Assembly: GCF_040536835.1 (NCBI RefSeq) | Contig: NZ_CP159578.1 | Coordinates: 2,790,001-2,854,000, forward strand | Length of the DNA stretch: 64,000 nt | Reading direction: 5' to 3' | Source of the DNA: Salinicola endophyticus | GTDB lineage: Bacteria; Pseudomonadota; Gammaproteobacteria; Pseudomonadales; Halomonadaceae | Shown: one piece after another, positions 19,455 through 36,560 of the stretch | How the letters are laid out: each line of letters opens with the position of its first letter | Position numbering within the stretch: position 1 is the stretch's first letter | Translations under genes and position numbers: made by a program | The notes under the pieces: model-generated | The model's input: the letters and a program-made list of their open reading frames with translations, nothing else | Told to the model about the DNA's origin: nothing | The model's database searches: none

Positions 19455-19461
19455 TCGCCAA

Positions 19462-20199: not shown

Positions 20200-20221
20200 A
20201 GAAGGTATGGATAGGTGAGGC

Positions 20222-21190: not shown

Positions 21191-21266
21191 GGGATGACCT
21201 ACTGCCGGGGGAACGGCGAACCGGGAAAGGATCGGCACGCGCCGATCCTTCGTTGTGCAAGATCCA

Positions 21267-22328
21267 TCAACTGGCGGTGGCGGCCTGCTGGGGCTGCGCG
21301 TTTTCGGCTTCCGCCTTGAGGATACGGTCGATGACCCGTCGAGCCTGGACACCCCCGCTATCGATGTTGAGCATCAGCAGGCGGCGGTCGGGATAAAGGA
21401 GCAGGTTACGCTGCTGGGACTCGAGCATTTCCAGGTCTTCCCCAAAGATCTTGCCCTGGCCCTCGCGGATCTGCTCGGTAAGGGTTTCGTCGTTCGGATT
21501 GAAGTTGCGGGCCATGCCCCAGAAATACCAGATGGAGTTCTCGGTTTCCGGCGTGATGAAATCCACTACGATGCTCGATGCCTTGGCATCGGCCGGCGCA
21601 TCGTATCCCCCCTTGCCGGCATGCGCGACACCCACTTCGATCAGGATGTGGCTGGGGGGGGTGAAGCGACAGATCTGCCAGCGATCCACGGGGACGTCGT
21701 CGGCGAGGTTGTTGGCGCGCAACGCGGATTGCCAGAACGGCGGCGCGGGAATGTTCTCCATGTGCCGGATGGTCAGCACTTCGTCGCCATTGACCTTGGT
21801 TTCCGGTGCGGATTCCTCGATCTCGGGCTGGCCGATGCTGGATGCGTGAACGTAGGTCTCATGGGTCAAGTCCATGAGATTGTCGATCATCAGGCGGTAA
21901 TCACAATTGATGTGATAGAGCCCGCCGCCATAGGCCCACTCGGGATCGTTGGCCCAGTGCAGTTCGGGGATCTGGTTCGGGTCGGCCTGCTCGGCATCCC
22001 CGGGCCAGACCCAGATGAAGCCGTGACGCTCGACGACGGGATACGCATGAATGCGGGGGAAGCCGCGCACGCGCTGGCCCGGCATGCTGGAGCACTTACC
22101 GTCACCGCCCATTTCGAGTCCGTGATAGCCGCAGACCAGTTGCCCGTCACACACGAAACCCAGCGACAGGGGCGCACCTCGGTGGGGACAGAAGTCTTCC
22201 ACGGCAGCAACCTGGCCACCCTCGCCACGGAAAAAGACGATTCGTTCGTTGCATACCGTGCGGCCGAGCGGCTTCTCTTCGATCTCGTCCGGCGTGCAGG
22301 CCACGTACCAAGTATTCTTGGGGAACAT
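21267..22328 (-). CDS. vanA: Vanillate O-demethylase oxygenase subunit
   Basis: The 353-residue Rieske non-haem iron oxygenase starts MFPKNTWYVACTPDEI. The Rieske centre is C47-H49 (FCPHRGA) and C66-H69 (CGYHG). The mononuclear iron site is in DNLMDLTHETYVH (H156, H161). It is very close to Pseudomonas VanA throughout (YGGGLYHI, DDVPVDRWQICRF, DFITPE). It converts vanillate to protocatechuate plus formaldehyde and, in many bacteria, also demethylates syringate. ATG 22328 has GAGGAG 6 nt upstream. The divergent vanR gene and two TTGGATCCAA operators lie upstream. Confidence 0.97.
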   Translation of the reverse strand: MFPKNTWYVACTPDEIEEKPLGRTVCNERIVFFRGEGGQVAAVEDFCPHRGAPLSLGFVCDGQLVCGYHGLEMGGDGKCSSMPGQRVRGFPRIHAYPVVERHGFIWVWPGDAEQADPNQIPELHWANDPEWAYGGGLYHINCDYRLMIDNLMDLTHETYVHASSIGQPEIEESAPETKVNGDEVLTIRHMENIPAPPFWQSALRANNLADDVPVDRWQICRFTPPSHILIEVGVAHAGKGGYDAPADAKASSIVVDFITPETENSIWYFWGMARNFNPNDETLTEQIREGQGKIFGEDLEMLESQQRNLLLYPDRRLLMLNIDSGGVQARRVIDRILKAEAENAQPQQAATAS

Positions 22329-22361
22329 GGTAATCTCCTCAGAGTGAGTGAACTTTTTGTT

Positions 22362-22375
22362 CTTTGGATCCAAAG
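22362..22375. promoter_or_regulatory. VanR operator 1
   Basis: Perfect 14-bp palindrome CTTTGGATCCAAAG in the vanA-vanR gap, 34 bp upstream of the vanA start. Its core matches the ATTGGATCCAAT site known for Caulobacter VanR. Confidence 0.88.
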
Positions 22376-22415
22376 TAAAGATTTTAAGGCCTCCCTGGGT
22401 CAAGATAGCCTTTAG

Positions 22416-22425
22416 TTGGATCCAA
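22416..22425. promoter_or_regulatory. VanR operator 2
   Basis: Palindromic core TTGGATCCAA with asymmetric flanks, 54 bp from the first copy (about five helical turns) and 28 bp before the vanR start. The spacing suggests cooperative repression of both divergent promoters. Confidence 0.85.
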
Positions 22426-22453
22426 AGATGAAGGCGCCGATAGGAGCGAGTAG

Positions 22454-23170
22454 ATGCCGGAAAAATCGGAAAAAAATGGTCGCCTCAATGTCATCGCCAG
22501 TTTGCGCAAGCTCATCAGCGAAGGCGTCTACGCGCCAGGCGAGCGCCTCAAGGAGTTGCATGTCGCCGAACGGCTCCAGGTGTCGCGCATGCCGGTTCGG
22601 CTGGCCTTCCGTACGCTCGAGCAAGAGGGCCTGCTGCAGAAGACCGGAACTCGCGGCTATGTCGTGCGTCAGTTCTCCGAAGAGGATGTGCTCTGTGCGG
22701 TGGAGGTACGCGGTGCCCTGGAAGGGCTGGCGGCGCGCCGCCTGGCGGAAAAAGGCATGCCGCAGGAGGTCGAGGCCGTTTTGAGTGACTGCCTGTCGCG
22801 TGAAGGGGCGCTGCTGGAAAAGGGGTATCTCGACCAGGCAGATATCGAACTCTGGGCCACCCTCAATCAGGAGTTTCATCGTGCCATCGTCGGCGCCACC
22901 GGCAGCCGTGTAATCCACGATGCGATCGCGCGCAACGATCATCTGCCCTTCGCTTCAGCCGATTCGATCATCATCGATGACACGGCGCTGGATCGCGAAT
23001 ACGGCAAGTTGCGCATAGCACATACCCAGCACCAACTCGTGTTTCAGGCGCTATCACGCGGTGAGGGGGCCCGGGCGGAGATGCTGATGCGCGAGCATGC
23101 CTACATCGGGCTACGGTACGGCACGCTGTTCGGGCTGGGCGGCGTAGGGCACGCCTCGAACGCGACGTGA
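22454..23170 (+). CDS. vanR: GntR/FadR-family regulator, VanR-type
   Basis: The 238-residue regulator has an N-terminal winged helix (IASLRKLISEGVYAPGERLKELHVAERLQVSRMPVRLAFRTLEQEGLL, residues 13-65) and an all-helical FCD ligand domain (EVRGALEGLAARRLAEKG, LNQEFHRAIVGATGS, HTQHQLVFQALSRGEG). VanR members repress vanAB until vanillate binds. It diverges from vanA with the operators between them, and a further operator follows its stop by 4 bp. The ATG lies 12 nt after a TAGGAG site. Confidence 0.92.
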   Translation: MPEKSEKNGRLNVIASLRKLISEGVYAPGERLKELHVAERLQVSRMPVRLAFRTLEQEGLLQKTGTRGYVVRQFSEEDVLCAVEVRGALEGLAARRLAEKGMPQEVEAVLSDCLSREGALLEKGYLDQADIELWATLNQEFHRAIVGATGSRVIHDAIARNDHLPFASADSIIIDDTALDREYGKLRIAHTQHQLVFQALSRGEGARAEMLMREHAYIGLRYGTLFGLGGVGHASNAT

Positions 23171-23174
23171 CGTC

Positions 23175-23186
23175 TTTGGATCCAAA
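23175..23186. promoter_or_regulatory. Orphan VanR operator 3
   Basis: Perfect 12-bp palindrome TTTGGATCCAAA directly after vanR. A possible -10 (TATAGT, about 23220) follows, but the sequence then runs into IS481-type remnants, so the gene it once controlled seems to have been lost. Confidence 0.75.
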
Positions 23187-23265
23187 AAGGCCACGCGAAC
23201 GCTGTCAGCGGTTGGGGCTATAGTATCGTCGAACCAAGCCTTACGGCCCTCCCGCCAACGGTTAG

Positions 23266-23319
23266 GCAGAACGGTTCCATGACAACCCGAACCGCTACTT
23301 CTCGGGACCCAACACCTAG
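23266..23319 (+). pseudogene. IS481-family type B transposase end fragment
   Basis: Eighteen codons including the stop, AERFHDNPNRYFSGPNT, are nearly identical to the end of the fragment at 19666-19909. The element end (TGTTGGGTCCCGAGAAG on the minus strand) abuts CCTAGG, and the TAG stop codon lies in that target hexamer. Confidence 0.75.
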
Positions 23320-23475
23320 GCACAGGCTTATGCAAGCTCGGACGAGCGAGGCAGGCATCTAACGGCCTGGCTTCATCCGTACCACTGGCATCGCCTACAT
23401 CTCAGTTTGGCTTACCAACCTCTGGTTAGTCGGCTGGGGCTATCCGTGAACACCCTGATGGGTTTACACGCCTAG
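23320..23475 (+). pseudogene. IS481-family type A transposase C-terminal fragment
   Basis: Fifty-two open codons encode AYASSDERGRHLTAWLHPYHWHRL and VSRLGLSVNTLMGLHA, then TAG. This is the intact C-terminus of the transposase whose degraded copy is at 19462-19665 in opposite orientation. The end of the element (TGTAAACCCATCAGG on the minus strand) meets CCTAGC. The palindromic CTAG also supplies the dctM stop codon on the other strand. Confidence 0.8.
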
Positions 23476-24776
23476 CCCATCATCGTATCGGGAAGAAACA
23501 GCACAATATCGGGAAAGACGATCAACAGCCCGATGGCCGCGATCATCACTAGCCAGAACGGCATGACCCCTTCGAAGATGTCGCGCAGCGGCACATTGGG
23601 CGCCACGGACTTGACGATGAAGACGTTCACGCCCACTGGCGGGCTGATAAGTCCCATTTCCAGTGTCAGCACCACCAGCACGCCGAACCAGATGGGATCG
23701 AACCCCAACTGGGTGATGACAGGGAAGAAGATCGGCATGGTCAGCACCAGCATCGCGAACCCTTCCAGGAAGCAGCCCAGTACCAGGTAACAGGCCAGTA
23801 TCAAGAGCAGGACGCCATACGGCCCGATATCCAGGGCCATCAGGAAATCACCCAGGGCCTGCGGAATATGGCTCAAGGCCAGAAAGGGGTTGAGCATGTG
23901 CGCGGCGATCAGGATCAGCATCACGGTCGCCGTGGTGGTGATGGAGCTTTGTGCCGCCCGCCAGAAGGAAGCCAGGGGCAGCTTGCGCATGGCGGCGCCG
24001 AACAGGATCGTCAGGGCGGCGCCCACGGCGGCGGCTTCCACGGGAGAGAAGATGCCCGAGTAAATGCCGCCGATCGTCAGCAGGATGATAAGCAGGATCG
24101 GCGTCGCGCCCAGCAGCCCCTGCTGCTTTTCTCGCCATGACGTCTTGGGACCGGAGGGCGCGAGAACCGGCTTGATGGTGGCCAGCAGCATGATCAGGAG
24201 AACAAACAGCAGACACAGCATGATGCCGGGCAACACGCCCGCCAGGAACAGGCGGCCGATTGACTGCTGCGTGAGGATGGCGTAGATCACGAAGCCGGTA
24301 GAAGGCGGAATGAGAATCCCCAGGGTCCCCCCGGCCGCCACCGACCCCGTGGACAGCTTGGCACTGTAGTTGAAACGCTCCATCTCGCTGAGCGAGACGC
24401 GTCCCATGGTGAGTGCCGATGCCACGGAGGAGCCGCAGAGCGCGGCGAAGCCGGCACACCCCACCACCGTGGCCGACGCCAGACCGCCCCGCACCGAGCC
24501 GATGAGTGCATAGGCGGCATCATAAAGCTTGCGGCTCATGCCCGCCTCGGTGGCGATGTTGCCCATCAAGATGAATAAGGGGATGACGATCAGCTCGGCG
24601 TTCGAGGCGATGGTAAAGGTTTCGCTAGCCAACAGGCTCAAGGCGGAGTTGAGGCTGTCGAGCACGGTAATCCCTCCAAAGCCCACGACGAAGATCGCGA
24701 AGGCCACAGGAATTCGCAGTACCAGAAGCGCCAACAGCGCAAGGATGCCCAGGGCACCCACCAGCTCGGTACTCAT
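23472..24776 (-). CDS. dctM: TRAP transporter large permease (DctM)
   Basis: The 434-residue inner-membrane protein has about 12 helices and DctM signatures: VGFGGITVLDSL, LIVIPLFILMGNIATEAGMSRKLYDAAY, GCAGFAALCGSSVASALTMG, GGTLGILIPPSTGFVIYAI and GLISPPVGVNVFIVKS. It forms the sodium-driven channel with DctQ. Its start overlaps the dctQ stop (ATGA). The last codons run into the type A IS end, and the TAG stop lies in its CTAG target, so the native C-terminus may have been altered by a residue or two. Confidence 0.93.
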   Translation of the reverse strand: MSTELVGALGILALLALLVLRIPVAFAIFVVGFGGITVLDSLNSALSLLASETFTIASNAELIVIPLFILMGNIATEAGMSRKLYDAAYALIGSVRGGLASATVVGCAGFAALCGSSVASALTMGRVSLSEMERFNYSAKLSTGSVAAGGTLGILIPPSTGFVIYAILTQQSIGRLFLAGVLPGIMLCLLFVLLIMLLATIKPVLAPSGPKTSWREKQQGLLGATPILLIILLTIGGIYSGIFSPVEAAAVGAALTILFGAAMRKLPLASFWRAAQSSITTTATVMLILIAAHMLNPFLALSHIPQALGDFLMALDIGPYGVLLLILACYLVLGCFLEGFAMLVLTMPIFFPVITQLGFDPIWFGVLVVLTLEMGLISPPVGVNVFIVKSVAPNVPLRDIFEGVMPFWLVMIAAIGLLIVFPDIVLFLPDTMMG

Positions 24777-25300
24777 AAGTCATCTTCCTTTTGCAAAGAC
24801 GCATGCCGGTGGGATGAAGCCAATAACGTCGAAACGATGCGTGCCAGCATGGAAAGCGCCGTCAAAAAGGCAAAAAACGCCACGATGTATTGGAACGGCG
24901 CCTTGGGAATCGCGATGATATTGGTGCTCAAGTTGAGCAACTTCGAGATTTCCGCCGCGCCGAGCATTGTATAGCCAATAGCCATGAAGATGGCACATCC
25001 CAGTACCCAGCCCACCACATCCAGCCAACGATTCATCTGCGCTGAAAACTTGTCTTCAAAGATATCCACGGCGATATTTCCGCCCTGCCGGTCACAGAGC
25101 GCCATACCACCGAACACGATGATGATCATAGTCATTTGTGACAGGTCCTGACCGCCCGGCAAGGGGTATCCGAGCAGACGCCCCGCGACATCGGCCAAGG
25201 TCACCGATACCGCGAAGATCAGGGCCAAGGTGCCGATCACGCTGGAAAGTCTTACGAATCCATCCAGCGTGCGGGCCACCCGCGTGAGAAAGTGACTCAT
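24773..25300 (-). CDS. dctQ: TRAP transporter small permease (DctQ)
   Basis: The 175-residue protein has four hydrophobic helices: LIFAVSVTLADVAGRLLGYPLPGGQDLSQM (helix 1 and loop), MIIIVFGGMALCDRQGGNIAVDIF, VVGWVLGCAIFMAIGYTMLG and YIVAFFAFLTALSMLARIV. This is the DctQ pattern. I chose ATG 25300 (MSHFLTRVAR) because the longer open frame runs back into dctP. It starts 7 bp after dctP and overlaps dctM by 4 nt, so the three genes are one unit. Confidence 0.88.
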   Translation of the reverse strand: MSHFLTRVARTLDGFVRLSSVIGTLALIFAVSVTLADVAGRLLGYPLPGGQDLSQMTMIIIVFGGMALCDRQGGNIAVDIFEDKFSAQMNRWLDVVGWVLGCAIFMAIGYTMLGAAEISKLLNLSTNIIAIPKAPFQYIVAFFAFLTALSMLARIVSTLLASSHRHASLQKEDDL

Positions 25301-25307
25301 CAAGAAC

Positions 25308-26303
25308 TCACTCCCCACGCATGGCATCAAGCACGTCATGAGTTCCACTTTCCGCCAGACGCCGCTCGCGGAAATTATCGGCAATGCGCTTGAACTCTGC
25401 GATCTCCTCCAGACTGAGCTCAATCACCTTATTATCGGAATCCTCACGAATGCTTTTCAAGGTTTCGTTGGCACGGGCATTCCATCCTTGCTCAGCGCTG
25501 CGAGAGAGTTTTTCACCACTATTATCATCGATGGCTTGCTGGAACTTGGCGGGAAGGCTGCCATATTTTTTCTGATTCATAACCAGATAAAACATGATGT
25601 GGCCTAGGGGCGCCCCCACCGAATAGACGTTGGCCACTTCATCGAGCTTGAAGTCGTTGATAGCACTGGCGCCGGTCACCAAGCCATCGATAAGGCCGGT
25701 TTGCAGCGCATTGTAAATCTCACCGGCGGGCATCTGTACGGGCGTGCCACCGTAGGCATCGATCAGCGCAGCCGTCATTTCTCCCGAGACACGAATCTTC
25801 AGTCCTTTGAGATCTTCTGGCGTGCGGATTTCTTCATCTTTCATGATGAAAATGTTCGGCTCGCTGACCCAGAGCGCCAGTGGCTTGGTGCCGGGAAACT
25901 CACTCTTCAACTGGTCTTCATAGGCATTCCAGAGCATGTCGTAGCCATGCATGTCGTCGGGAATGGCACCGGGCATTTCCACGACCATCGATTTCTTGAA
26001 TTGCGACGAAGTGTACCCCGGCAATCCCCAGACGATGTCCGCCACCCCTTGCAGCACGCGCGGATATTGTTCCATGGGGCCGGACCCCAGTTCGCCCCCC
26101 GGGTAGACCTTGATTTCCAGCTCTCCGCTCGTCTGCTGCTCGACACCCTTCTTGAATGGATAAACGACGGCACTGTTGACGACATGCGCCGGCGATACGA
26201 AGTGTGCGAGCTTCAAGATTTCAGCAGCGCTCACGCCGGTATTGGCAGCCAGCGCTATACCAGCGGCCAGGGTTAATAGGGCACGGCTTTTCAACGTCTT
26301 CAT
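25308..26303 (-). CDS. dctP: TRAP transporter substrate-binding protein (DctP)
   Basis: The 331-residue periplasmic receptor begins with a signal peptide (MKTLKSRALLTLAAGIALAA...VSAAE). The mature part has HFVSPAHVVN, LEIKVYPGGELG, LKGLKIRVSGEMTAALIDAYGGTPVQMPAGEIYNALQTGLIDG (carboxylate-binding Arg region) and DEVANVYSVGAPLG, all typical of DctP family members. The ligand is unknown. Its place between vanAB-vanR and the gal operon and next to a LysR gene suggests an aromatic carboxylate, which is inference only. Confidence 0.92.
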   Translation of the reverse strand: MKTLKSRALLTLAAGIALAANTGVSAAEILKLAHFVSPAHVVNSAVVYPFKKGVEQQTSGELEIKVYPGGELGSGPMEQYPRVLQGVADIVWGLPGYTSSQFKKSMVVEMPGAIPDDMHGYDMLWNAYEDQLKSEFPGTKPLALWVSEPNIFIMKDEEIRTPEDLKGLKIRVSGEMTAALIDAYGGTPVQMPAGEIYNALQTGLIDGLVTGASAINDFKLDEVANVYSVGAPLGHIMFYLVMNQKKYGSLPAKFQQAIDDNSGEKLSRSAEQGWNARANETLKSIREDSDNKVIELSLEEIAEFKRIADNFRERRLAESGTHDVLDAMRGE

Positions 26304-26461
26304 TCCGGCGTCTCCCGACTTTTTTTCAACTTTTGTCTTATTTTATTCTCCGTTTTCCCACCAGGACGCAAAGAAACGGAGCCTGAAAGCACCGTACCCG
26401 GCCCTCATTCACGACAACAAATTCAAATCACATGCTTGGGTATACGTTTTTGCTATCCCGG

Positions 26462-27715
26462 TCACGCCCGAGTAGACGAGGAAGGATCGGCCATGCGCTC
26501 CCCAAGCGTCAGCAAGATATCCTTGAGGACTTTCAAGGCCTGGGTCGGAGAGTCGTCGGCACGTGTGGTGATGCCGATCGGGCGGAGCGTGCCCGTCAGC
26601 TTGATGGGAAGCAGCGCCAGCTGGCCGCTCTGGACTTCGAAGAACACCTGATGGGGCGAGACCAGCGTCACGCGGTCGCTGTCGAGCAGCAGGGTGCGAA
26701 TCGTACTGAGATTGCCGGACTCCACCACGACCGAAGGCGGCTGCAGGCCGGCACTGCGAAACTCCTGCTCGAAACTCACGCGCGCCGGCGTGCCCTGCCG
26801 GGGGGCGATCCATTGCGCATCGAGCAGATCGCTCAATTGCAGCGCGGCGTGCTTCATCAGGGGATGACCGTGGCGTGCCGCGACGGCGAGGCGGTCATGG
26901 AAGAGACGTTGCTGATGCGTGTCCTCGCTGGTACCCGCCTGACGCAGCGCACCGATGAGGATATCGATCTCGCCATGACGCAGCGACTCGAACAGGGCGT
27001 CGTAGGTGCCCTCGATGATGGTCACGTTCAGGCCCGGCAATTCACGCAACAAGGCATCCACGGCATGCGGCACCAGTAGCGAGCTGGAAAGCGGCAAGGT
27101 ACCGATCACCACGCGCCCCCGCACCTCGCCCTGCCAGGCGGAGAGGTCATCGCTGACCAGGTACAGCTCGCGCAGGGCCATCTTGGCATGACGAATCAGC
27201 ACCGCACCGCCATCGGTGGCCAGCATGCCGCGTTGCGTGCGCAGGAACAACGCGATGCCCAGCAGGCGTTCCAGATCACGCAGATTGCCGCTGACCGCCG
27301 GCTGGGTCAGGCCCAGCCGCCTGGCCGCCAGGGGTTCGTTATGCAGATCGGCGACGGCTACCAGCACCGTCAATTGACGATGCGACAAGCGTTGCGGGAG
27401 GCGCTCGAAATTGCCCTCGGGGTGCAGACGTGCCAGCACGGTCTCGGCCTCGGTCAATTGCTGCAAGGCACGCCGGAAGCGATGCAGGACTATCTTCCCC
27501 GCCGTGGTGCATAACATGCCGCTGCGATGGCGCTCGAACAGTGCCAGGCCGAGCTCCTTTTCCAGGTCACGCACCGCCCGTGTCACAGCGGGTTGCGACA
27601 GGTGCAATGCCTCGGCCGCCCGCATCACGCTGCCCGCCTCGGCCACGGCGATGACCGCACGCAAGCGCCGCATGTTGGGTGCGTAATCGAATGCCTCGCG
27701 ATGCAGCTCGGTCAT
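26462..27715 (-). CDS. LysR-type regulator with two tandem HTH domains
   Basis: The 417-residue protein is about 110 residues longer than a normal LysR regulator because the N-terminal winged helix occurs twice. The first is at about 15-75 (MRRLRAVIAVAEAGSVMRAAEALHLSQPAVTRAVRDLE) and the second at about 110-170 (HRQLTVLVAVADLHNEPLAARRLGLTQPAVSGNLRDLE). A single LysR effector domain follows (about 200-410, GRVVIGTLPLSSSLLVPHAV, DRVTLVSPHQVFFE). ATG 27715 has GAAAGGG upstream. It diverges from galB across 204 bp and probably controls the gal operon and perhaps the TRAP genes, as GalR/LigR-type regulators do. Confidence 0.9.
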   Translation of the reverse strand: MTELHREAFDYAPNMRRLRAVIAVAEAGSVMRAAEALHLSQPAVTRAVRDLEKELGLALFERHRSGMLCTTAGKIVLHRFRRALQQLTEAETVLARLHPEGNFERLPQRLSHRQLTVLVAVADLHNEPLAARRLGLTQPAVSGNLRDLERLLGIALFLRTQRGMLATDGGAVLIRHAKMALRELYLVSDDLSAWQGEVRGRVVIGTLPLSSSLLVPHAVDALLRELPGLNVTIIEGTYDALFESLRHGEIDILIGALRQAGTSEDTHQQRLFHDRLAVAARHGHPLMKHAALQLSDLLDAQWIAPRQGTPARVSFEQEFRSAGLQPPSVVVESGNLSTIRTLLLDSDRVTLVSPHQVFFEVQSGQLALLPIKLTGTLRPIGITTRADDSPTQALKVLKDILLTLGERMADPSSSTRA

Positions 27716-27919
27716 GGCTGACCCTTTCGACATGAATCTGCGTCCAGCATGCCGCATGGGGGCGCCGCACGATATGCCATAAAGGGAGCATGGCCATCCG
27801 CATCGTGGCGGGGATCGGCGCATAAGCAAAACGCATATTGACGCCAACGAAAAACATTATTCGCGTTTCAGGCAAGCTGACAGGATGAAACCATCGTCTT
27901 CAACGGTAGGTTATCGCTC

Positions 27920-28660
27920 ATGACTGTCGCGTCTTCTTCTCCCGCTGGCCTGGTGGTCAGCGCACACTCGGCGGATTTCGTATGGCGGGCCGGTGGTGCC
28001 ATCGCCCTGCACGCCCGGCAGGGCTATGCCATGCATATCGTCTGCCTGTCGTTCGGCGAACGGGGCGAATCCGCCAAGCTGTGGCGCCAGGGAAACATGA
28101 GCGAGGAAAAGGTCAAGGCGGCCCGCCGCGAGGAAGCCGAAGCGGCCGCCGCGGCCGTGGGGGCCAGCGTCGAGTTCTTCGATATCGGCGACTACCCCAT
28201 GCGCGCCGACAAGGAAACGCTGTTCCGGCTCGTCGAGGTCTATCGCCGCGTGCAGCCCGAGTTCGTGCTCACGCATTCGCTCAAGGATCCCTACAACTAC
28301 GATCACCCGCTCGCCACCGACCTCGCCCAGGAAGCCCGCATCATCGCCCAGGCGGAAGGCCACAATCCCGGCGAGACCATCGTCGGCGCCCCGCCCGTCT
28401 ACTGCTTCGAGCCGCACCAGCCGGAGCAATGCCAGTGGCGCCCCGACGTGCTGCTCGACATCACCGAGGTGTGGGACGACAAGTACCGCGCGATTCAGTG
28501 CATGGCCGGCCAGGAACACCTTTGGGAATACTATACCCGCGTCGCCCTGCAGCGTGGCGTGCAGGCCAAGCGCAACATCGGCATCACCGCGAACAAGAAC
28601 ATCCAGTATGCCGAGGGCTATCAAAGCATCTTTCCTCGCGTCACGGAGAATCTGGCATGA
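27920..28660 (+). CDS. galB: 4-oxalomesaconate hydratase (GalB, PIG-L fold)
   Basis: The 246-residue zinc-type PIG-L/LmbE-fold protein carries [80 protein letters not shown] and [20 protein letters not shown]. These match Pseudomonas putida GalB, which hydrates 4-oxalomesaconate to 4-carboxy-4-hydroxy-2-oxoadipate in gallate breakdown. It is the first gene of a six-to-seven gene plus-strand operon, and its stop overlaps the galC start (ATGA). Confidence 0.94.
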
Positions 28661-29391
28661 CGACCTCACTGGAAACGCCCGGTATCGTCGTACGCGACAT
28701 TCCCCGGGCCAAGCACGAACACATCGATGCCCTCGGCGAAGAGGGCGTCGCCACCGTGCATGAAGCCCAGGGCCGCAAGGGACTGCTCGACCCCGCGATC
28801 CGCCCCATTCAGCAGGATCGCGGCATCAGCGGCTCGGCGGTGACCGTGCTGGTCTCGCCCGGCGACAACTGGATGTTCCATGTCGCCGTGGAGCAGTGCC
28901 AGCCCGGCGACATCCTCGTGGTAGCCACGCGCTCGCCCTGTGTCGACGGCTATTTCGGCGACCTGCTGGCCACCTCGCTGCAGGCCCGCGGCGTGCGCGG
29001 CCTGGTCCTCGACGGCGGCGTGCGCGACACTCGCATCCTGCGTGAAATGGGCTTCGCCGTCTGGTCGCGCGCCGTGCATGCCCAGGGCACCGTCAAGGAG
29101 ACCCTGGGCTCGGTGAACATTCCCGTCGTCTGCGCCGGCCAGTGGGTCAACCCCGGCGATATCGTCGTCGCCGACGACGACGGCGTGGTCGTGGTGCGTC
29201 GCGACGAGGCCGACGGCGTGGTCGCCGCCAGCCGCAAGCGCGCCGCCGCCGAGGAAGACAAGCGCGTGCGCCTGGCCAATGGCGAACTGGGCCTCGACAT
29301 CTACGACATGCGCCAGCGACTGGCCGACAAGGGCCTGACCTATTACGACGACCCGCAGGCGCTGGCACGTGCCATGGAGTCCTCGTCATGA
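28657..29391 (+). CDS. galC: 4-carboxy-4-hydroxy-2-oxoadipate aldolase (GalC/LigK/ProA)
   Basis: The 244-residue RraA/HMG-CHA aldolase-fold enzyme has [85 protein letters not shown] and the ADDDGVVVV strand. The GGVRD motif binds the pyruvyl group and metal. It cleaves CHA to pyruvate and oxaloacetate, the last step of both the gallate and protocatechuate 4,5-cleavage routes. GGAGA precedes the ATG, and both ends overlap neighbours by 4 nt. Confidence 0.95.
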
Positions 29392-30500
29392 GCCAGACGC
29401 GCATCCCGTGTCTGCAGATGCGCGGCGGCACCTCGAAGGGGCTGTACTTCCTCGCCGAGGACCTCCCCCGCGACACCGACCGGCGCGATGCGGTATTGCT
29501 CGCCGCAATGGGCTCGCCCGATGCGCGTCAGATCGACGGCCTGGGCGGGGCGACCTCGCTGACCAGCAAGGTCGCAATCGTCGATCGTCCGACCCGGGAC
29601 GACGTGGATGTGGATTATCTTTTCGCCCAGGTCGTCGTCGACGCCCCGCGCGTCGACTATGGCCAGAACTGCGGCAACATTCTCGCCGGTGTCGGCCCCT
29701 TCACCATCGAGCGCGGCTGGGTGACGGCATACGACGGCACGACGCCGGTACGCGTGCACATGGTCAACACCGGCCAAGTGGCGATCATCCATGTCCCGAC
29801 GCCCGGCGGTAACGTCGCCTACGCCGGCAATGCCCAGATTTCCGGCGTGCCGGGCAGCGCAGCCCCCTTGATCGTCGAATTCCAGGATACCGCCGGCTCG
29901 AGCTGTGGCGCCCTGCTGCCCACCGGCCACTCGCGCGACACTGTCGAGGGCATCGACGTGACCTGTCTCGATAACGGCATGCCGGTGGTCCTGTTACGCG
30001 CCCAAGATCTTGGCGTCAGCGGCCACGAAAGCTGTGCCGACCTGGAAGCTAACACCGCACTGCGAGAACGCCTCGAACGCATCCGCCTGGAGGCGGGATC
30101 GCGCATGAACTTGGGCGACGTCAGCGAGCGCACCGTGCCCAAGATGACCCTCATCGCCGCGCCTCGACATGGAGGCAACCTCGCCACGCGATCGTTCATT
30201 CCGCATCGCTGCCACGAGGCCATCGGCGTGCTCGGTGCGGTCAGCGTGGCCAGTGGCTGCCTGGTCCCGGGCACCGTGGCCGAGGGGCTGGCGGTGCTGA
30301 ACGAGGGAGCGACACAGCGCCTGTCGATCGAGCACCCGACCGGCGAGTTCACCGTCGAGCTGACCCGTGACGCGGACGGCGAGATCGTCCGCGCGGGACT
30401 GCTGCGCACCGCCCGACTGCTCTTCGAAGGCCACTTGCATGTGCCGCGTGCCGTCTGGAATGGCGACACCGCGGCCCACTCCCACGGAGCCGCTTCATGA
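29388..30500 (+). CDS. galD: 4-oxalomesaconate tautomerase (GalD, PrpF family)
   Basis: The 370-residue PrpF-type isomerase begins [24 protein letters not shown] and has [40 protein letters not shown] and a second half [26 protein letters not shown]. The Cys in YGQNCGN is the expected catalytic base. GalD interconverts the oxalomesaconate tautomers so that GalB can act. Start ATG 29388 overlaps the galC stop (ATGA), and its own stop overlaps the hydrolase start in the same way. Confidence 0.95.
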
Positions 30501-31210
30501 CATCCGTCCCGCTATTGCCGTTGCCGGGCCTGCTGTGCGACGCCGCCGTCTGGGCCCATGTGCGCGAACATCTCGTCGCCCCCACGCTGCCCACGCCCGA
30601 CTACGGCATGGCCGATTCCATCGGTGCCATGGCCGACATTGCCTTGCAAGACGCGCCCGAGCGATTCATCGCGGTGGGCCATTCCATGGGCGGCCGCGTC
30701 GCCCTCGAGATCCAGCGTCGCGCACCGCAGCGTCTCGCGGGCCTGGCGCTGCTGGATACCGGCTTCCGCGGTCGGGCGGCGGGAGAAGCGGGCCAGCGCG
30801 AACGCGAAAACCGTCACGCGCTGCTGGCCAAGGCCCGCCAGGACGGGATGCGCGCGATGGGCGGCACCTGGCTGCAAGGCATGGTGCACCCCGAACGCCT
30901 CGACGACGAAACACTCGTCGAGGCGATTCTGGCGATGATCGAGCGCAAGGATCCCGACACCTTCGCCGCCCAGATCGACGCTCTGCTGGCCCGTCCGGAC
31001 GCCACCGAGCAACTGTCCGGCATCGCCTGCCCGACCCTGCTGCTGTGCGGACGCCAAGATGCCTGGAGTCCGCTGGAACGCCACGAGGAAATGGCAGGGC
31101 TCATTCCCGGCAGCCGTCTCGAGGTCATCGAGGAGGCCGGCCACATGAGTCCCATGGAGCGCCCCGCCGCTGTCGCCCGGGCGCTCGACCACTGGAGAAA
31201 CCACGCATGA
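30497..31210 (+). CDS. Alpha/beta hydrolase in the gal operon
   Basis: The 237-residue alpha/beta-hydrolase has the nucleophile elbow FIAVGHSMGGRVALEI (Ser about residue 61), a late Asp in LLLCGRQDAWSPLERHEEM and the catalytic His in VIEEAGHMSPMERP. The oxyanion-loop HGxP is PLPGLLCDAAVW. It may hydrolyse an aromatic ester or lactone upstream of ring cleavage. No ligI (pyrone dicarboxylate hydrolase) is present in the window, so a lactonase role is conceivable but unproved. It is coupled at both ends by ATGA overlaps. Confidence 0.85.
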   Translation: MTSVPLLPLPGLLCDAAVWAHVREHLVAPTLPTPDYGMADSIGAMADIALQDAPERFIAVGHSMGGRVALEIQRRAPQRLAGLALLDTGFRGRAAGEAGQRERENRHALLAKARQDGMRAMGGTWLQGMVHPERLDDETLVEAILAMIERKDPDTFAAQIDALLARPDATEQLSGIACPTLLLCGRQDAWSPLERHEEMAGLIPGSRLEVIEEAGHMSPMERPAAVARALDHWRNHA

Positions 31211-31662
31211 TCGCCTTGTCCCACGCATCCCGAGCGGCCATCGAGCAGGCCTGCACCCGTCTGGTCCTCAATGCCGCTGCCGCCACCGACCGTCAGGACT
31301 ATGCCGGGCTCGTGGCGCTTTTCACGCCGGACGGCCAGCTGTTTCGGCCCACCGCTCCCGAGGAACCGCTCGCCGGGCGCGACGCGATCCTGGCAAGCTA
31401 TCGGGCACGCCCTGCACAGCGCATCACGCGACATTTCTGCAGCAATATCCGTGTTCAGGTGGAAAGCCCCGAGCGCGCGCGGGTCACCACCTACGTGCAA
31501 GTCTTCGCCGCCGATACCCAGCACGCGCCGGACGGTCACTTCGGCTGGCCGTTGGCGGGGCGCACCATGATCGGTGAATTCGACGATCTGTGCGTCCTCG
31601 ATCAGGGCGCCTGGCGCTTTGCCGAGCGCCACGCACGTTTCGTCATGCATCGCGATGGCTGA
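31207..31662 (+). CDS. SnoaL/NTF2-like small protein
   Basis: The 151-residue protein is of the nuclear-transport-factor-2 cone fold: CTRLVLNAAAATDRQDYAGLVALFTPDGQLF, a central PLAGRDAILASYRARP and a C-terminal strand set ending GAWRFAERHARFVMH. Such proteins act as small hydratases, isomerases or accessory subunits; the same fold is the beta subunit of ring-hydroxylating dioxygenases. No catalytic residues can be fixed. It overlaps the hydrolase gene by ATGA and is followed 45 bp later by the ligA homologue with its own ribosome site (AAAAGGAAAA). Confidence 0.8.
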   Translation: MIALSHASRAAIEQACTRLVLNAAAATDRQDYAGLVALFTPDGQLFRPTAPEEPLAGRDAILASYRARPAQRITRHFCSNIRVQVESPERARVTTYVQVFAADTQHAPDGHFGWPLAGRTMIGEFDDLCVLDQGAWRFAERHARFVMHRDG

Positions 31663-31707
31663 CGCCATGCGTCACGTCACCACACAATAGAAAAGGAAAA
31701 ACACGCC

Positions 31708-32064
31708 ATGTCGGATGCACAAGAGCGCTGGGGCATTCCCGGCACCTATGTCTTCGACCTTGCGCTCTCGCGACAAGGCTATGCCATCAACAAGATGTGC
31801 AATTCGCTCAAATTCGACGAGAACCGCGAGGCCTTCAAGGCCGACGAAGAAGCCTATATGGAACGCTACGGCTTGTCGGAAGAACAGAAACAGGCCATTC
31901 GCCAGCGTGACTGGCTGCGTCTGACCCAGCTCGGCGGCAACCTGTTCTTCTTCCTCAAGCTTGGCGCCACTCTGGGCTACGGGCTTTACACCATCGGCGC
32001 ACAGATGCGTGGCGAGAGCTACGAGCAGTTCATGTCCACCCGCAACGTGCCAGGAGCAACCTAA
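31708..32064 (+). CDS. ligA: Class III extradiol dioxygenase small subunit (LigA/PmdA-like)
   Basis: The 118-residue all-helical subunit matches protocatechuate 4,5-dioxygenase alpha: GTYVFDLALSRQGYAINKMCNSLKFDENREAFKADEEAYMERYGLSEEQKQAIRQRDW, LTQLGGNLFFFLKLGATLGYGLYTIGAQMRG and the C-terminal STRNVPGA. LigA caps the active site of LigB. The stop and the ligB start share a base (TAATG), as expected for equal subunit synthesis. The partner could be a protocatechuate or a gallate enzyme. Confidence 0.92.
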   Translation: MSDAQERWGIPGTYVFDLALSRQGYAINKMCNSLKFDENREAFKADEEAYMERYGLSEEQKQAIRQRDWLRLTQLGGNLFFFLKLGATLGYGLYTIGAQMRGESYEQFMSTRNVPGAT

Positions 32065-32909
32065 TGGGCAAGATCGTCGCCGGCATCGGCTCCTCTCATG
32101 TGCCCTCGATTGGGCGCGCCTATGACCAGAAAAAACAGGCCGACCCCGCCTGGCAGCCCCTCTTCGACGGTTACGAGCCGGTCAAGCGCTGGCTGGCCGA
32201 TGAGGTCAAGGCCGATGTCGTCATCCTCGTCTACAACGATCATGGCACCGAGTTCTTTCTCGACCGCTATCCCACCTTCGCGCTGGGTGTGGCCGACAGC
32301 TACGAAGTGGCCGACGAAGGCTACGGCAAGCGCCCCTTGCCGGACTTCCCCGGGGATGCGGCCTTTTCCGAGCATCTCGCCAACCACCTGGTCGCCGACG
32401 AGTTCGATCTGACCCTGTGCCAGGAAATGGCACTGGATCATGGCTTCCTCACCGCCATGCCGCTGCTCTGGGATCACGATGACACGGCCTGGCCGGTCAA
32501 GGTCGTGCCGCTTCTGGTCAACGTCATCCAGCATCCGCTGCCCACGGGCCTGCGCTGCTATAAGCTGGGCGAGGCCATTCGGCGCGCCGTCGAGGCCTAT
32601 CCCGAGGACACCCGCGTTGCAGTCGTCGGCACTGGTGGCCTCTCGCACCAACTAAATGGCGAGCGTTTTGGGCATATTAATGAAGAATGGGACAAGCAGT
32701 GGCTACAGCGCATCCAGGACCAACCCCGCGAGCTTGCCGCACTGTCGCACAAGGAAGTCATGACGGAGGCCGGCGCCGAGGGCGGTGAAGTCATCATGTG
32801 GTTCGTGATGCGCGGCGCCATGACCGAGCGCGTCGAGGAAGTTCACCGCTTCTACTACGCCCCGATGACGACGGGTATGGCGCTGCTAGCGCTCAATAAC
32901 AGCGACTGA
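32064..32909 (+). CDS. ligB: Class III extradiol dioxygenase catalytic subunit (LigB/PmdB-like)
   Basis: The 281-residue catalytic subunit has the iron ligands H12 (GSSHVP), H60 (VYNDHG) and E242 (GGEVIMW), plus the catalytic H195 (GTGGLSHQ). The numbering is almost the same as in Sphingobium LigB. It opens protocatechuate at the 4,5-bond or possibly gallate. Some blocks (RCYKLGEAIRRAVEAYPED) look closer to gallate dioxygenases than to LigB. No ligC or ligI is in the window, yet GalB, C and D are adjacent, which would fit direct formation of oxalomesaconate from gallate. This substrate choice is unresolved. Confidence 0.9.
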   Translation: MGKIVAGIGSSHVPSIGRAYDQKKQADPAWQPLFDGYEPVKRWLADEVKADVVILVYNDHGTEFFLDRYPTFALGVADSYEVADEGYGKRPLPDFPGDAAFSEHLANHLVADEFDLTLCQEMALDHGFLTAMPLLWDHDDTAWPVKVVPLLVNVIQHPLPTGLRCYKLGEAIRRAVEAYPEDTRVAVVGTGGLSHQLNGERFGHINEEWDKQWLQRIQDQPRELAALSHKEVMTEAGAEGGEVIMWFVMRGAMTERVEEVHRFYYAPMTTGMALLALNNSD

Positions 32910-32982
32910 CTTCCCCTTGGAAAAGACTGAACACATCGACAGGCAGGTGAATTTCAATACGCACGGAACACCGCAACCGAAG

Positions 32983-32988
32983 CCTATA
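32983..32988. repeat. Target-site duplication CCTATA, left copy
   Basis: CCTATA immediately precedes the left inverted repeat of the IS481-family element; the identical hexamer is at 34063-34068 after the right end. Confidence 0.85.
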
Positions 32989-34062
32989 TGAGGGATCCCG
33001 GATGATCAAATCGCCTGCAGAAGCTATCCTCTGCTAGCTGCCAGAGAGCTTCTTCAGCAATTCATCCGGGAGCAGGTTCATGAACATCAAGCTGCATAAA
33101 CAAGCGACCACGACACCGAAGATCCGTGCCGAGATCCAGGCAGCGCCCTCCAGCATCACGGATAGCGATCTGGCCCGCCAGTATGGCGTCGCCACCGCAA
33201 CCATTCGGCGCTGGCGGTACCGTGACGATGTGCACGACCGATCACACACGCGTCACAACCTGCTGGCCACGCTCACGTCCGAGCAGGAGGAGGTGCTGAT
33301 CGCAGCGCGCGAATTCCTTCGCCTTGGCTTGGATGATCTCCTTGTCGTGGCGCGTGAGTTCCCGCCCCCCGGTTATCTCGCTCAGGCCTGCATCGTATGC
33401 TCCAGCGGCGCGAAGTTCCAACACTGGCAGAACTGGCTCGGCAAGATGCCGGCGATGATGAGAAGCCTCGGCACAAGCCTTTCAAGGACTACGATCCGGG
33501 CTTCTGCACATCGACATCAAACACTTACCTCAGATGCCTGACGAGCAGCAGAAACGCTACCTTTACGTCGCCATCGACCGTGCCACCCGCTGGGTCTATC
33601 TAGAAGTCAGGTGCAGTCAGGCCACGAAGGAGGCGCAGGCGTTCATGAGGCAGGTGGAACAGAAGGCAACGTTCAAAATTCGGACAGTGCTCATGGACAA
33701 TGCCAAATGCTTCACCGATCGCTTCACACGGGTCGGTGAGCGCAAGCCCAGTGGTGACCATGCGTTCGACCAAGAGTGCCAAGCCCATGGTATCGAGCAT
33801 CGTCTGATCAAGCCGGATAGGCTTCAGACGAACGGCATGGTGGAGCACTTTGACGGCCATATCAGCGACGTGCTGGCGACTCGAAGATACGCCTCAGGCG
33901 AAGACCTGGAGCAGACGCTGAAACGCTATACGTGGCTGTACAATCACCACATTCCACAAAAGGCGCTACACCATCATTCGCCGATTGAGGTGATGAAGGA
34001 ATGGCAGGCCAAGCACCCTGAGTTATTTACCAAGCGGGTGGTCAATCACGCGGGATCCGACA
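32989..34062 (+). mobile_element. IS481-family insertion sequence, 1074 bp, transposase inactive
   Basis: The left end TGAGGGATCCCGGATGATC (from 32989) and the right end read on the minus strand TGTCGGATCCCGCGTGATT (from 34062) form an imperfect inverted repeat sharing GGATCCCG. Both ends are flanked by CCTATA, a 6-bp duplication as expected for IS481. The element lies between ligB and the galA remnant and carries one transposase frame broken twice. Element length and gene position fit the family. Confidence 0.85.
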
Positions 34063-34076
34063 CCTATAGGGTATAG
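33080..34076 (+). pseudogene. IS481-family transposase with two frameshifts
   Basis: Three frames must be joined. The first, from 33080 to about 33365, encodes the HTH part (TDSDLARQYGVATATIRRWRYRDDVHDRSHTRH). The second, about 33370-33505, encodes RLSRSGLHRMLQRREVPTLAELARQDAG and PFKDYDPGF. The third, about 33506 onward, encodes HIDIKHLPQMPDEQQKRYLYVAIDRATRW, LMDNAKCFTD and NGMVEHFDGHISDVL with the DDE residues. Each break equals one missing base, the first in a C-rich run near 33361-33371 and the second near 33500. The frame runs 14 bp past the element end to a chance TAG. Confidence 0.9.
34063..34068. repeat. Target-site duplication CCTATA, right copy
   Basis: Identical to 32983-32988, directly following the right end of the IS481-family element. 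Because this target lacks CTAG, the transposase frame is not stopped here as it is in the other IS481 copies. Confidence 0.85.
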
Positions 34077-34161
34077 GTGGGGATTGCAGGCGCCGCGTAA
34101 CTCAGCGATTCACCTACGCAGATATTTATGCAGTGTTTACCTTGGGAACGAGGTATCGAAA

Positions 34162-34524
34162 ATGGCACACATCATCGGCGGGCTCGTCGTTTCCCCACAC
34201 CCCAATGGCCGGCTTCGCCGTCGATCATGAGAAGCAGGAAGAAGATATAGACCACTACTCCGCCTTCCCAATGGGCTTCGACGACCTCTATGCGGTTGCC
34301 AACGAAAACAGTGGGGCGCGCGATCTGCCCGGCATTCGTGGGCATGGGGCGCTGTCTCGTCTATCCCGAAACGCTCTTCGAGAAGGCTGCATCTGATCCG
34401 CGAGCACGACTGGCGAAGCATGGTCCATTATGGCGTCGTCTTCTTCTCGCTGGAAAAGCTCGGCGCCGTCATCAGCAATTCCAATCTCCATATCTATGCC
34501 GCCATATGCAGCGAAAGTCTGTAA
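34162..34524 (+). pseudogene. galA: Gallate dioxygenase (galA) remnant
   Basis: The start MAHIIGGLVVS (ATG 34162) is followed by a one-base insertion in a C-run. The next frame reads HTPMAGFAVDHEKQEE, then jumps to DHYSAFPMGFDDLYAVANE and ARDLPGIRGHGALSR. The last frame reads REHDWRSMVHYGVVFFSLEKLGAV and SNLHIYAAICSESL, then TAA. The first parts match the LigB-like half and the last the LigA-like C-terminal domain of one-piece gallate dioxygenases (GalA/DesB). About 45 residues are missing after EKQEE and some 250 before REHDW, so the gene is dead. It lies about 100 bp after the IS element. Confidence 0.82.
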
Positions 34525-34955
34525 GAATGTCAAAAGCCCCTTAATCGGCAGGTCACCTACCTCGTGGCGTGCCGTCGAAATACCGATGACGCATCTCAGC
34601 AGAGACTTAATAAGCTGGCGCTTTATTTTGGTTCTTCGCGGAAACCCGAGAGCTACCCGGACTTTTGCGAAGAACTTTTTCAGCCTCCATAATTCATAAG
34701 AAAAAGCGAAACTTTCATTTCGAACAAAACATAACGAGAAAACAATTAGCAGGGCAGCAAAGTTTGCAACAAAACAAGCATCGGCGACCTCTCACACTCA
34801 CTCCCTTTCACGACTTAATTCAGTGGAATTTCATTAAGACGCCATCAGGAAAATGCATAGGGAGACGATGAAAAATTAATTTTCTCCACGCCTCAGGACC
34901 GCATACTCGTTCAAGCGAAAACCGCTCATAACTTCCTACAAAGGGCAGCTCACAA
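34525..34955. other. AT-rich intergenic region upstream of the porin
   Basis: Clearly lower in GC than the rest of the window, with several A- and T-runs (34690-34860). No supported gene. It should hold the porin promoter, but several equally weak -10 candidates exist. Confidence 0.5.
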
Positions 34956-36182
34956 ATGCGATCCGCGATAACAAAATTCAAGATGACCAAGCTCGCGCTC
35001 TGGGTATCACTCGCTTCAGGCATGGCCATCGTGACGACCGTTCCCGCTCACGCTTTTGACGTCGTCGAAGCGGGGCAACCCGTTGTCACCGGTGAACCTA
35101 GTCGTGTAGGTCCGCCGTGGAACCATCGGTCGACCATCAATATTCCCGGCACCAAGACCGACGTCGCCTTTGGTGGCTACATCAAGCTCGATATGCTCTA
35201 CGACTTCGACTATGACCTCGGCAAGTCCACCAACCCCTATGCGATCATGGATTCATCGAAGCGTACCGATGGACGTAGCGATTTTACCGCCTATGAGTCA
35301 CGGCTCAACTTCCGCACACACACGATGACCGATTACGGCCGCCTGACGACGTATCTCGAAGGCCACTTCATTCCCGACGGTTCCTTCAACCTGCGTCAGG
35401 CCTACGGTGAGCTCAACGGCTTCCTCGCTGGGCGCACCTGGACGAACTTCATGAGCTTCGTGGGCGGGACACGTACCCTAGCGCTTGGCGATCCCAAGGG
35501 TTATGCCTTCGAGCGTCAGGCGCAGTTGCGCTATACCCTGCCGGTAGGTGCGGGGCATCTATCGTTCTCCGTGGAAGATCCGGATACGGTGATCGCACGT
35601 GACGACGCCGGCGTCGCCGATGGTGAAAGCCAACTTCCCGACTTGACGGTACGTTACGAATACAAGCGCCTGCTCGCGCTTTCCGGGGTGGCACGCCAAC
35701 TCTCTACCAACAACATCACCAACACCGTGGATGACGAGACCACAGGTTACGGGATTCAGGCGCAATTCAACCTGCCCTTCACACCCATGACAAGCCTGCA
35801 TGGTAGTGCCACCTACGGCGAAGGTATCGGCAACTACATGGGCAACCCCGGCAATACTGGGCACCGTAACGCCCCCGATGTATACGTCAACGATGACAAC
35901 AAGCTCAAGGCCATCGAGACGCGGGCCTTCGGTATTTCCCTGAACCATAACTGGACCGATGACTGGTTCAGTTCTGTCGGATTTTCCCGTCTCGATCAGG
36001 ACATGCCCAAAAAATACGGCAGCCAGTTCGAGACCATCGACTATGCCTTTGTCAACGTTATATGGGATATCACGCAGCGCCTTACAGTGGGTCTTGAGTA
36101 CCAAAATGCTGAGGTCGAACAGATCAACGGCAACTCTGATGACGCAAGCCGCCTGCAGGCAAGCGCTATCTTCCAGTTCTAG
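34956..36182 (+). CDS. DcaP-like outer-membrane porin
   Basis: The 408-residue protein has a signal peptide (KLALWVSLASGMAIVTTVPAHAF), then alternating amphipathic strands: KTDVAFGGYIKLDMLYDFDYDLG, FTAYESRLNFRTHTMTDYGRLTTYLEGHFI, FNLRQAYGEL and LAGRTWTNFM. It ends in aromatic Phe (SAIFQF), as outer-membrane barrels do. The GGYIKLD...DYD and LRQAYGEL...GQ/GRTW pattern fits the DcaP family of trimeric porins that admit dicarboxylates and aromatic acids. With the gal and van genes upstream it is a likely entry pore for the substrate of the island. A second start at 34983 is possible. A good terminator follows. Confidence 0.82.
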   Translation: MRSAITKFKMTKLALWVSLASGMAIVTTVPAHAFDVVEAGQPVVTGEPSRVGPPWNHRSTINIPGTKTDVAFGGYIKLDMLYDFDYDLGKSTNPYAIMDSSKRTDGRSDFTAYESRLNFRTHTMTDYGRLTTYLEGHFIPDGSFNLRQAYGELNGFLAGRTWTNFMSFVGGTRTLALGDPKGYAFERQAQLRYTLPVGAGHLSFSVEDPDTVIARDDAGVADGESQLPDLTVRYEYKRLLALSGVARQLSTNNITNTVDDETTGYGIQAQFNLPFTPMTSLHGSATYGEGIGNYMGNPGNTGHRNAPDVYVNDDNKLKAIETRAFGISLNHNWTDDWFSSVGFSRLDQDMPKKYGSQFETIDYAFVNVIWDITQRLTVGLEYQNAEVEQINGNSDDASRLQASAIFQF

Positions 36183-36210
36183 TGATACGACAATGATCGA
36201 TCGTGATTTA

Positions 36211-36236
36211 GGCTGGCATTTCGCCAGCCTTTTCAT
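36211..36236 (+). terminator. Intrinsic terminator of the porin gene
   Basis: Perfect 7-bp stem GGCTGGC / GCCAGCC with loop ATTTC (36211-36229), followed by TTTTCATTT, 28 bp after the porin stop. Confidence 0.85.
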
Positions 36237-36560
36237 TTGCCTGAAAAGCTCTTTTCATTACCGGCCCATTGAACCCATGCTAAACCCGGATAATCCAACA
36301 GCTATCTTGCACCACCCCATAGGATTATCTTGAGAGGGAACGTCTAGCGCGATCGGCGTCGCACATGCCTGATCTTGCATCCGAGAGATCGCCGACTCAA
36401 GCTATCTGCTGGCTCTCGGTACCGCGCTGATTTCTCGTGCCGCTCTGTTTCCCGGCCACGCCCTGTTTCTCAGGCGACAGCGCCGTCGGCTCAACTCCTG
36501 GCATAGCTAGCCCACAAAGCCAGCCTACAACCTTAGTCCAGAACGTTAGCCCACAACGTA
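36237..36560. other. Intergenic region between the porin and the suc operon terminator
   Basis: No gene supported. It marks the right edge of the accessory island, between convergent transcripts. No att-like repeat or IS end was recognised. Confidence 0.5.

Follow-up and report, generated by a model that had tools for sequence, protein, structure and literature searches.

A decayed gallate dioxygenase gene behind a split LigAB-type dioxygenase in a predicted syringate/3-O-methylgallate island of Salinicola endophyticus

In Pseudomonas sp. NGC7, according to the portion of the published account used here (PMC12314914), the syringate pathway comprises VanA1B1, the split dioxygenase MgaAB, the MenH-type hydrolase MgaC, the pfam13577 protein MgaD, and GalD, GalB and GalC, with VanR2 (GntR) and GalR as regulators. 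The same portion reports that growth on syringate is abolished by deleting mgaAB, mgaC, galB, galC or galD, and slowed in the absence of mgaD. The gallate specificity of DesB, a dioxygenase of Sphingobium SYK-6, has been ascribed to Glu377 in the available part of another study (PMC3962378), and the LigAB and LigAB2 enzymes of N. aromaticivorans turn gallate into OMA in vitro, as stated in the sections at hand of a third (PMC8091115).

The locus described here was found in a window of 64,000 nt (the whole stretch of DNA that was analyzed) of the S. endophyticus genome, which is a single 4.32-Mb contig. On its left side lie vanB, an O-demethylase reductase (20222..21193, minus strand; PF00111, PF00175), vanA, a Rieske O-demethylase oxygenase (21267..22328, minus strand; PF19112 with 178 bits, PF00355), and a GntR/FCD regulator identified by domain match (22454..23170, plus strand). 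These are followed by minus-strand open reading frames (23472..26303), co-located in relatives, which we take to be the TRAP transporter genes dctM, dctQ and dctP, the transporter presumably carrying an aromatic acid, and by galR (26462..27847, minus strand), a LysR-type regulator so named for its position and because it is 39.5% identical to the LysR gene that accompanies galBCD in P. oryzihabitans. In this regulator a single substrate-binding domain is preceded by two HTH_1 stretches of LysR type, an arrangement that is unusual among LysR regulators and that recurs in the P. oryzihabitans relative (L005 10430-11668). The remaining genes are all on the plus strand, starting with galB, a PIG-L type hydratase (27920..28660; PF02585; 83% identical to galB of a P. 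oryzihabitans plasmid cluster), galC, a 4-carboxy-4-hydroxy-2-oxoadipate aldolase (28657..29391; NF006731 with 389.5 bits, cut-off 179), and galD, a 4-oxalomesaconate tautomerase (29388..30500; NF033377 with 536 bits, cut-off 440). An mgaC-like alpha/beta hydrolase comes next (30497..31210), predicted from its family match and from its linkage to LigAB-type genes in other genomes to be a CHMOD methyl-ester hydrolase, then an mgaD-like SnoaL_4 protein (31207..31662; PF13577), a predicted CHMA tautomerase with the domain that the cited portion of PMC12314914 gives for NGC7 MgaD. The run closes with an mgaA-like LigA-type subunit (31708..32064; PF07746 with 110 bits, alignments) and an mgaB-like LigB-type catalytic subunit, the predicted beta subunit of a 3-O-methylgallate dioxygenase (32064..32909; PF02900 with 225 bits, NF009902 with 508 bits, tree and residues).

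Together with the remains of galA, this van-to-galA cluster occupies an island of about 17 kb (19451..36423). Five same-genus relatives were compared at its two edges: what lies left of about 19450 adjoins what lies right of about 36424 directly in one of them (L092), whose site is thus empty, and the two sides are separated by 130–138 nt in two others and by about 4.1 kb in the remaining two. None of 17 same-genus relatives had a LigA match over the cut-off. Given this arrangement and the lack of a LigA match in the sampled genus mates, the cluster is best read as an arrival in S. endophyticus. Positions 23471-32917 are collinear with a block of Chromohalobacter marismortui (89%), and galA remnants extend the match beyond an insertion sequence to 34628; the outer flanks differ on both sides between the two. 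The G+C content of most of the island is lower than that of the left flank, but that of 28000-31000 is not, and a tRNA scan of 15000-40000 revealed no attachment site. The vanB-vanA-gntR block is framed by repeats at 19462-19910 and 23264-23475 (direct, 56 nt, 89%; inverted, 52 nt, 90% and 47 nt, 81%), a layout suggestive of transfer as a composite element. A second vanA-type oxygenase, perhaps the vanillate enzyme, is present elsewhere in the genome (G000:C1:943159-943752, L063) with vanB- and gntR-like neighbours, this set being 40%/33%/37% identical to the vanA, vanB and gntR set of the window.

The galA pseudogene itself, once a fused gallate dioxygenase gene, lies at 34162..34524 on the plus strand with homology reaching 34628. 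The original prediction had assigned three short reading-frame pieces to both halves of such an enzyme, and this assignment was confirmed by PF07746, tblastn and blastn alike, with all of the named peptides in place: an ATG at the galA start opens 34162-34524, MAHIIGGLVVS shares one frame with HYGVVFFSLEKLGAV and SNLHIYAA, and HTPMAGFAVDHEKQ and DHYSAFPMG sit in another. In the family search of the whole genome the PF07746 (LigA) match falls at 34390-34536 (E 9.7e-9, above the curated cut-off). For the N-terminal half, a reading joined by hand across the frameshift was used as tblastn query and matched 25 plasmid records (best E 2e-13), with a gallate dioxygenase annotation on 11 of the best 20 of these 25. 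Judged as sequence matches, the similarities of the fossil peptides are far beyond chance. Compared by blastn with the intact galA of C. moromii, the fossil aligns in three blocks, 34146-34245 (88% over 100 nt), 34250-34365 (78% over 117 nt) and 34349-34628 (78% over 301 nt); across the intact genes of C. moromii and C. marismortui the block identity is 78–90%, and the LigB-like N-terminal and LigA-like C-terminal halves are colinear with intact galA on one strand. The blocks were taken from blastn; MAFFT misplaced the 5' half of the fossil across long gaps.

The reading frame of about 420 codons has not been kept. Of the lesions predicted beforehand, a one-base insertion and two deletions, the insertion stands (+1 in a run of C, 34193-34196), but the deletions number three and a premature TAA has to be added (34522-34524). 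In the first deletion 112 nt were replaced by 4 at 34246-34249; the second removed 710 nt, its junction (34349..34361, plus strand) lying at a 13-nt imperfect direct repeat found at nt 295 and 1005 of the intact C. moromii gene; and the third is a net loss of 20 nt at 34392. Window-specific substitutions at codon positions 1/2/3 number 24/17/26 in the fossil versus 4/2/29 in mgaB (Fisher p 2e-5), and 2/0/7 in mgaA; with this flat codon-position pattern, constraint on the fossil is relaxed. Sequencing error was rejected on the grounds of five separate lesions and the neutral codon pattern. The gal operon was also expected to lack any other galA, and this proved correct: galB, galC and galD are open, and PF02900 and PF07746 searches of the genome brought up no further galA, whether fused or intact. 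PF07746 matches are confined to two places, ligA and the fossil, and PF02900 matches to two genes, ligB and a LigB-family gene at 2699654 without a LigA match. The latter (L061 6547-7446) was considered as a second galA and rejected, as it has the LigB match alone and sits on a long branch in the tree.

An IS481-family element (32921..34139, plus strand, 1219 nt; 32920-34139 was used in searches) separates mgaB from the fossil and is flanked by a 6-bp target duplication, CCTTGG, at 32915-32920 and 34140-34145. A single copy of CCTTGG fits the length of the uninterrupted site in C. moromii and C. marismortui, and the inverted ends are weak (13–14 of 20, duplicated bases included). The element is 83% identical at the DNA level, over 88% of the stretch, to two copies annotated as IS481 family transposase in Halomonas sp. 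THAF12. Its transposase (DDE/rve) is spread over three frames versus a single gene of 329 codons in that strain, and the element is therefore broken as well; the genome has no second full-length copy, but four partial matches elsewhere. Placed where it is, the element would uncouple galA from transcription of the operon.

At the same locus in relatives, where the original prediction proposed to look for an intact galA, the gene is present in C. moromii (L015) and C. marismortui (L019), two of 16 loci compared (L015-L030), with its start 30 nt behind mgaB; by its position the fossil is orthologous to it. Only start and end remnants of galA occupy this place in C. canadensis (L016), C. nigrandesensis (L017) and C. 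sarecensis (L018), with a short middle piece also kept in C. canadensis. One of the C. canadensis junctions coincides with a 13-bp exact direct repeat, the longest in the intact gene (at nt 312 and 1185 of C. moromii galA). C. nigrandesensis and C. sarecensis have one junction in common, which C. canadensis does not share. After mgaB, galA was not found in the loci of Halomonas sp. EAR18 and McH1-25. A Chromohalobacter-type genome (G044) has the last ~64 codons of galA followed by the right flank that it has in common with C. moromii, and no LigB-type match to GalA was found in that genome; this 3' end (L056 9953-10141) is still open in frame and marks where the lost operon once was.

A tree built on the TRAP-galB block groups C. 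canadensis with C. moromii, in which galA is intact, and joins C. nigrandesensis to C. sarecensis; the losses must therefore have been separate. The shorter mgaC-mgaB tree again groups C. nigrandesensis with C. sarecensis and leaves the pair of C. canadensis and C. moromii unresolved; the window joins C. marismortui in this tree and not in that of the TRAP-galB block. Hence galA has decayed separately at least three times, in the window and in two or more other lineages (C. canadensis; C. nigrandesensis/C. sarecensis), to which the loss in G044 is to be added. A family-wide search gave a GalA match in 13 of 275 genomes, of which two encode the full-length fused protein; four genomes of this search are the same contigs as L016, L017, L018 and L020.

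The other part of the operon is more widely kept. A LigB scan with the window protein led to 21 named loci, 16 of which have an MgaB with ≥74% identity (the loci L015-L030), and mgaC, mgaD, mgaA and mgaB occur together in 15 of these, L030 being without mgaC. In seven of the 16, vanA (68–86% identical) and vanB are found within the same ~20 kb. None of the five Chromohalobacter loci has a close vanAB within range; two of them (L017, L018) have a vanA-like gene of ~32% identity, and the vanA and vanB of Halomonas sp. EAR18 (L020) are ~32–33% identical. At the order level, an mgaC search matched 26 of 390 genomes, with 24 matches outside the family; 20 loci were fetched and four were not. These 20 loci, two of which (L114, L115) repeat contigs already represented by L024 and L028, contain mgaB in 12 cases, mgaD in 10, vanA with vanB in four and galC with galD in four, and in none of them is fused GalA the best match. 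Eight of the 20 have no mgaB-like gene within range, one of these having mgaA only, and the closest hydrolase of the set (63%, L113) has neither mgaAB nor vanAB nearby. Among 369 sampled genomes of the class, the SnoaL gene was matched at E 1e-15 in its own genome only.

Farther away, a plasmid of Novosphingobium pentaromativorans carries relatives of mgaC (45%) and mgaD (37%) near ligA and ligB, in a region with an annotated aminomethyltransferase-family protein, methylenetetrahydrofolate reductase and formyltetrahydrofolate deformylase, presumably a folate-type demethylation set. On a Roseomonas plasmid, a LigB-type gene adjoins an mgaC relative, with vanA, gntR and vanB relatives about 6 kb on. 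The association of mgaC, mgaD, mgaA and mgaB is thus not a chance of this genome. Two Halomonas loci vary the theme: in strain McH1-25 (L021 11061-13268) vanA-vanB follow directly after mgaB, in the place of galA in Chromohalobacter, and the 3' end of the operon looks like a swap-in place; in strain EAR18 galB-galC-galD are absent from the locus save for the first 22 galB codons (L020 8306-8371, L060), with mgaC, mgaD, mgaA and mgaB retained next to galR, which would mean that OMA processing takes place at another site or that the cluster is being lost.

Regarding the substrate of the split dioxygenase, the beta subunit of the window keeps all five metal-ligand/catalytic positions checked, including the Fe ligands and the catalytic His. 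In the LigB tree it groups with the other 15 mga-type rows in an MgaB-like clade (96/94), and the GalA clade (100/100) is distinct from this one; the tree carries a long-branch warning, and one Roseomonas row falls with the GalA rows in it. Because its neighbours are an mgaC-like hydrolase, a SnoaL_4 protein, vanAB and a GntR regulator, 3-O-methylgallate is most likely the main substrate of this MgaAB-like enzyme, as judged from gene content; by analogy, a side activity on gallate is plausible. The suggestion in the original prediction that the pathway had switched substrate comes close to this, insofar as the neighbours point to 3-O-methylgallate.

We therefore consider it probable that the locus is a horizontally acquired syringate/3-O-methylgallate island in which galA, a side entrance for gallate, was separated by the IS481 element and decayed as dispensable. 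The TRAP transporter would import the aromatic acid, VanAB would O-demethylate syringate to 3-O-methylgallate, and the split LigAB-type enzyme would open its ring to CHMOD, from which the MgaC-like hydrolase would remove the methyl ester; the MgaD-like SnoaL_4 protein would then isomerise CHMA to OMA, to be converted by GalD, GalB and GalC to pyruvate and oxaloacetate, all substrates being inferred from sequence. In the ancestral operon galA would have been the last gene, through which free gallate could enter directly as OMA. The IS481 element would have landed in the short mgaB-galA gap, perhaps before the other lesions, and galA, cut off and dispensable, would have decayed by frameshift, by a nonsense mutation and by deletions, one of which lies at short direct repeats. 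What the relatives display seems to be the repeated erosion of a redundant or unused side entrance rather than enzyme replacement.

A real possibility, albeit somewhat less than an even one, is that galA arrived already broken with the island, in which case it would tell nothing about selection in this host. The absence of the island from the genus mates sampled and the broken state of galA in three of the five Chromohalobacter loci favour such a course, but the lesions of the window match none of the broken Chromohalobacter copies (L016, L017, L018, L056). It would be compatible with the decay of a dispensable side entrance and would differ in place and time.

The original prediction had gone further and proposed that the fused dioxygenase died and the split one took over. 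In its simplest form, a later-arriving split enzyme that replaced galA, this was rejected, because C. moromii and C. marismortui hold intact galA directly behind the split dioxygenase, 30 nt apart, and both enzymes stood side by side; in addition, conservation of the split enzyme and its partners extends to lineages in which galA is missing from the ~20 kb of the locus, which also goes against replacement. A functional form, in which the split enzyme is itself a gallate dioxygenase, galA was redundant and the operon still degrades gallate, is rather unlikely. The scanned operon genes include no ligC or ligI and the run feeds the OMA-processing GalDBC; with NF009904, a model of the fused gallate dioxygenase that spans both subunits and has a cut-off of 412 bits, one subunit reaches 362.2 and the other 77.9 bits, a sum of 440; the LigAB and LigAB2 enzymes mentioned above make OMA from gallate; and recurrent loss beside a retained relative fits redundancy. 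However, the mgaC- and mgaD-like genes would be jobless if gallate were the sole substrate, since gallate cleavage yields OMA directly. The column of DesB Glu377 holds Leu in the LigA of the window and in the 15 mgaA relatives aligned (L023 left out), Thr13 is changed to Val in the beta subunit, and SYK-6 LigAB and DesZ are reported, in the part of the literature drawn upon, to be insufficient for gallate. The specificity Glu is retained in the fossil and in intact GalA.

For the dispensable side entrance, an adaptive cause of its repeated loss can also be imagined. DesB-type enzymes are thought, in the available part of PMC3962378, to hold 3-O-methylgallate in a flipped, non-productive pose via Glu377, so that a co-transcribed GalA would sequester this compound and syringate specialists would shed galA, an idea that we regard as doubtful. 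Least probable is a reading of the split enzyme as an ordinary protocatechuate 4,5-dioxygenase within a protocatechuate/vanillate route: the enzyme has family-level similarity to LigA and LigB and vanAB could make protocatechuate from vanillate, but the NCBIfam protocatechuate alpha-subunit cut-offs are missed (TIGR02792 and NF009918; 85.3 of 108.6 and 108.3 of 161 bits), ligC and ligI are missing among the operon genes scanned, a protocatechuate 3,4-dioxygenase is encoded elsewhere in the genome, mgaC and mgaD are left unexplained, and the US6-1 row, annotated as the LigB partner of LigA and standing in for SYK-6 LigB in the tree, falls in another clade than the mga-type rows.

One of two ring-opening enzymes has thus been lost several times in close relatives with its intact form still at hand, which makes the dispensability of a fused gallate-specific dioxygenase beside a split one testable in culture. 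If the favoured reading, an island for syringate and 3-O-methylgallate with an eroding gallate entrance, is true, the 3-O-methylgallate route extends to salt-loving bacteria and their kin, and labels such as 'protocatechuate 4,5-dioxygenase' on genes of this kind may be wrong. Among the matches listed in a search of the open-access literature (titles and abstract starts), there was no report of galA pseudogenes or of a syringate pathway in Chromohalobacter. The recurrent erosion of the gallate-specific last gene from a 3-O-methylgallate operon is apparently new, as a variation on known pathways brought about by ordinary gene loss.

Among the known systems, LigAB of SYK-6 (PDB 1b4u) resembles the split enzyme in its two-subunit architecture (beta 273 bits, alpha 67 bits), but has other operon partners, and the LigA of the window does not reach the alpha-subunit equivalog cut-offs. 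DesB (PDB 3wku; PMC3962378) is a full-length relative of the intact C. moromii galA product (576 bits), and FFxLEK, with the specificity Glu, survives in the fossil, from which no enzyme can be made. With the galTAP/galBCD system of P. putida KT2440, as described in the portion of PMC12314914 referred to above, the locus has in common galR, galBCD and a fused GalA orthologous to the fossil; in contrast to KT2440, galA is dead in the window and stands outside a separate galTAP operon, and a split dioxygenase and mgaC/mgaD-like genes are added. By domains and gene content the locus resembles the NGC7 pathway, with a Rieske O-demethylase pair, a GntR regulator, a split LigAB-type dioxygenase, a MenH/alpha-beta hydrolase, a pfam13577 protein, GalR and GalBCD in both: in the window the LigA-type and LigB-type subunits are adjacent genes, the alpha/beta hydrolase and the pfam13577 SnoaL protein lie within the same cluster, and the VanAB-type O-demethylase, the GntR regulator and galBCD/galR are all near the mga genes. 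NGC7 MgaA and MgaB are 47% and 41% identical to KT2440 GalA (from the same portion of PMC12314914), as against 40% and 49% of the window pair to P. oryzihabitans GalA, and by these sequence identities the two pairs need not be one subfamily. Whereas the NGC7 genes form two operons under VanR2 and GalR, the gal and mga genes of the window make up one run beside galR, with a TRAP transporter, and this run, unlike that of NGC7, ancestrally included galA.
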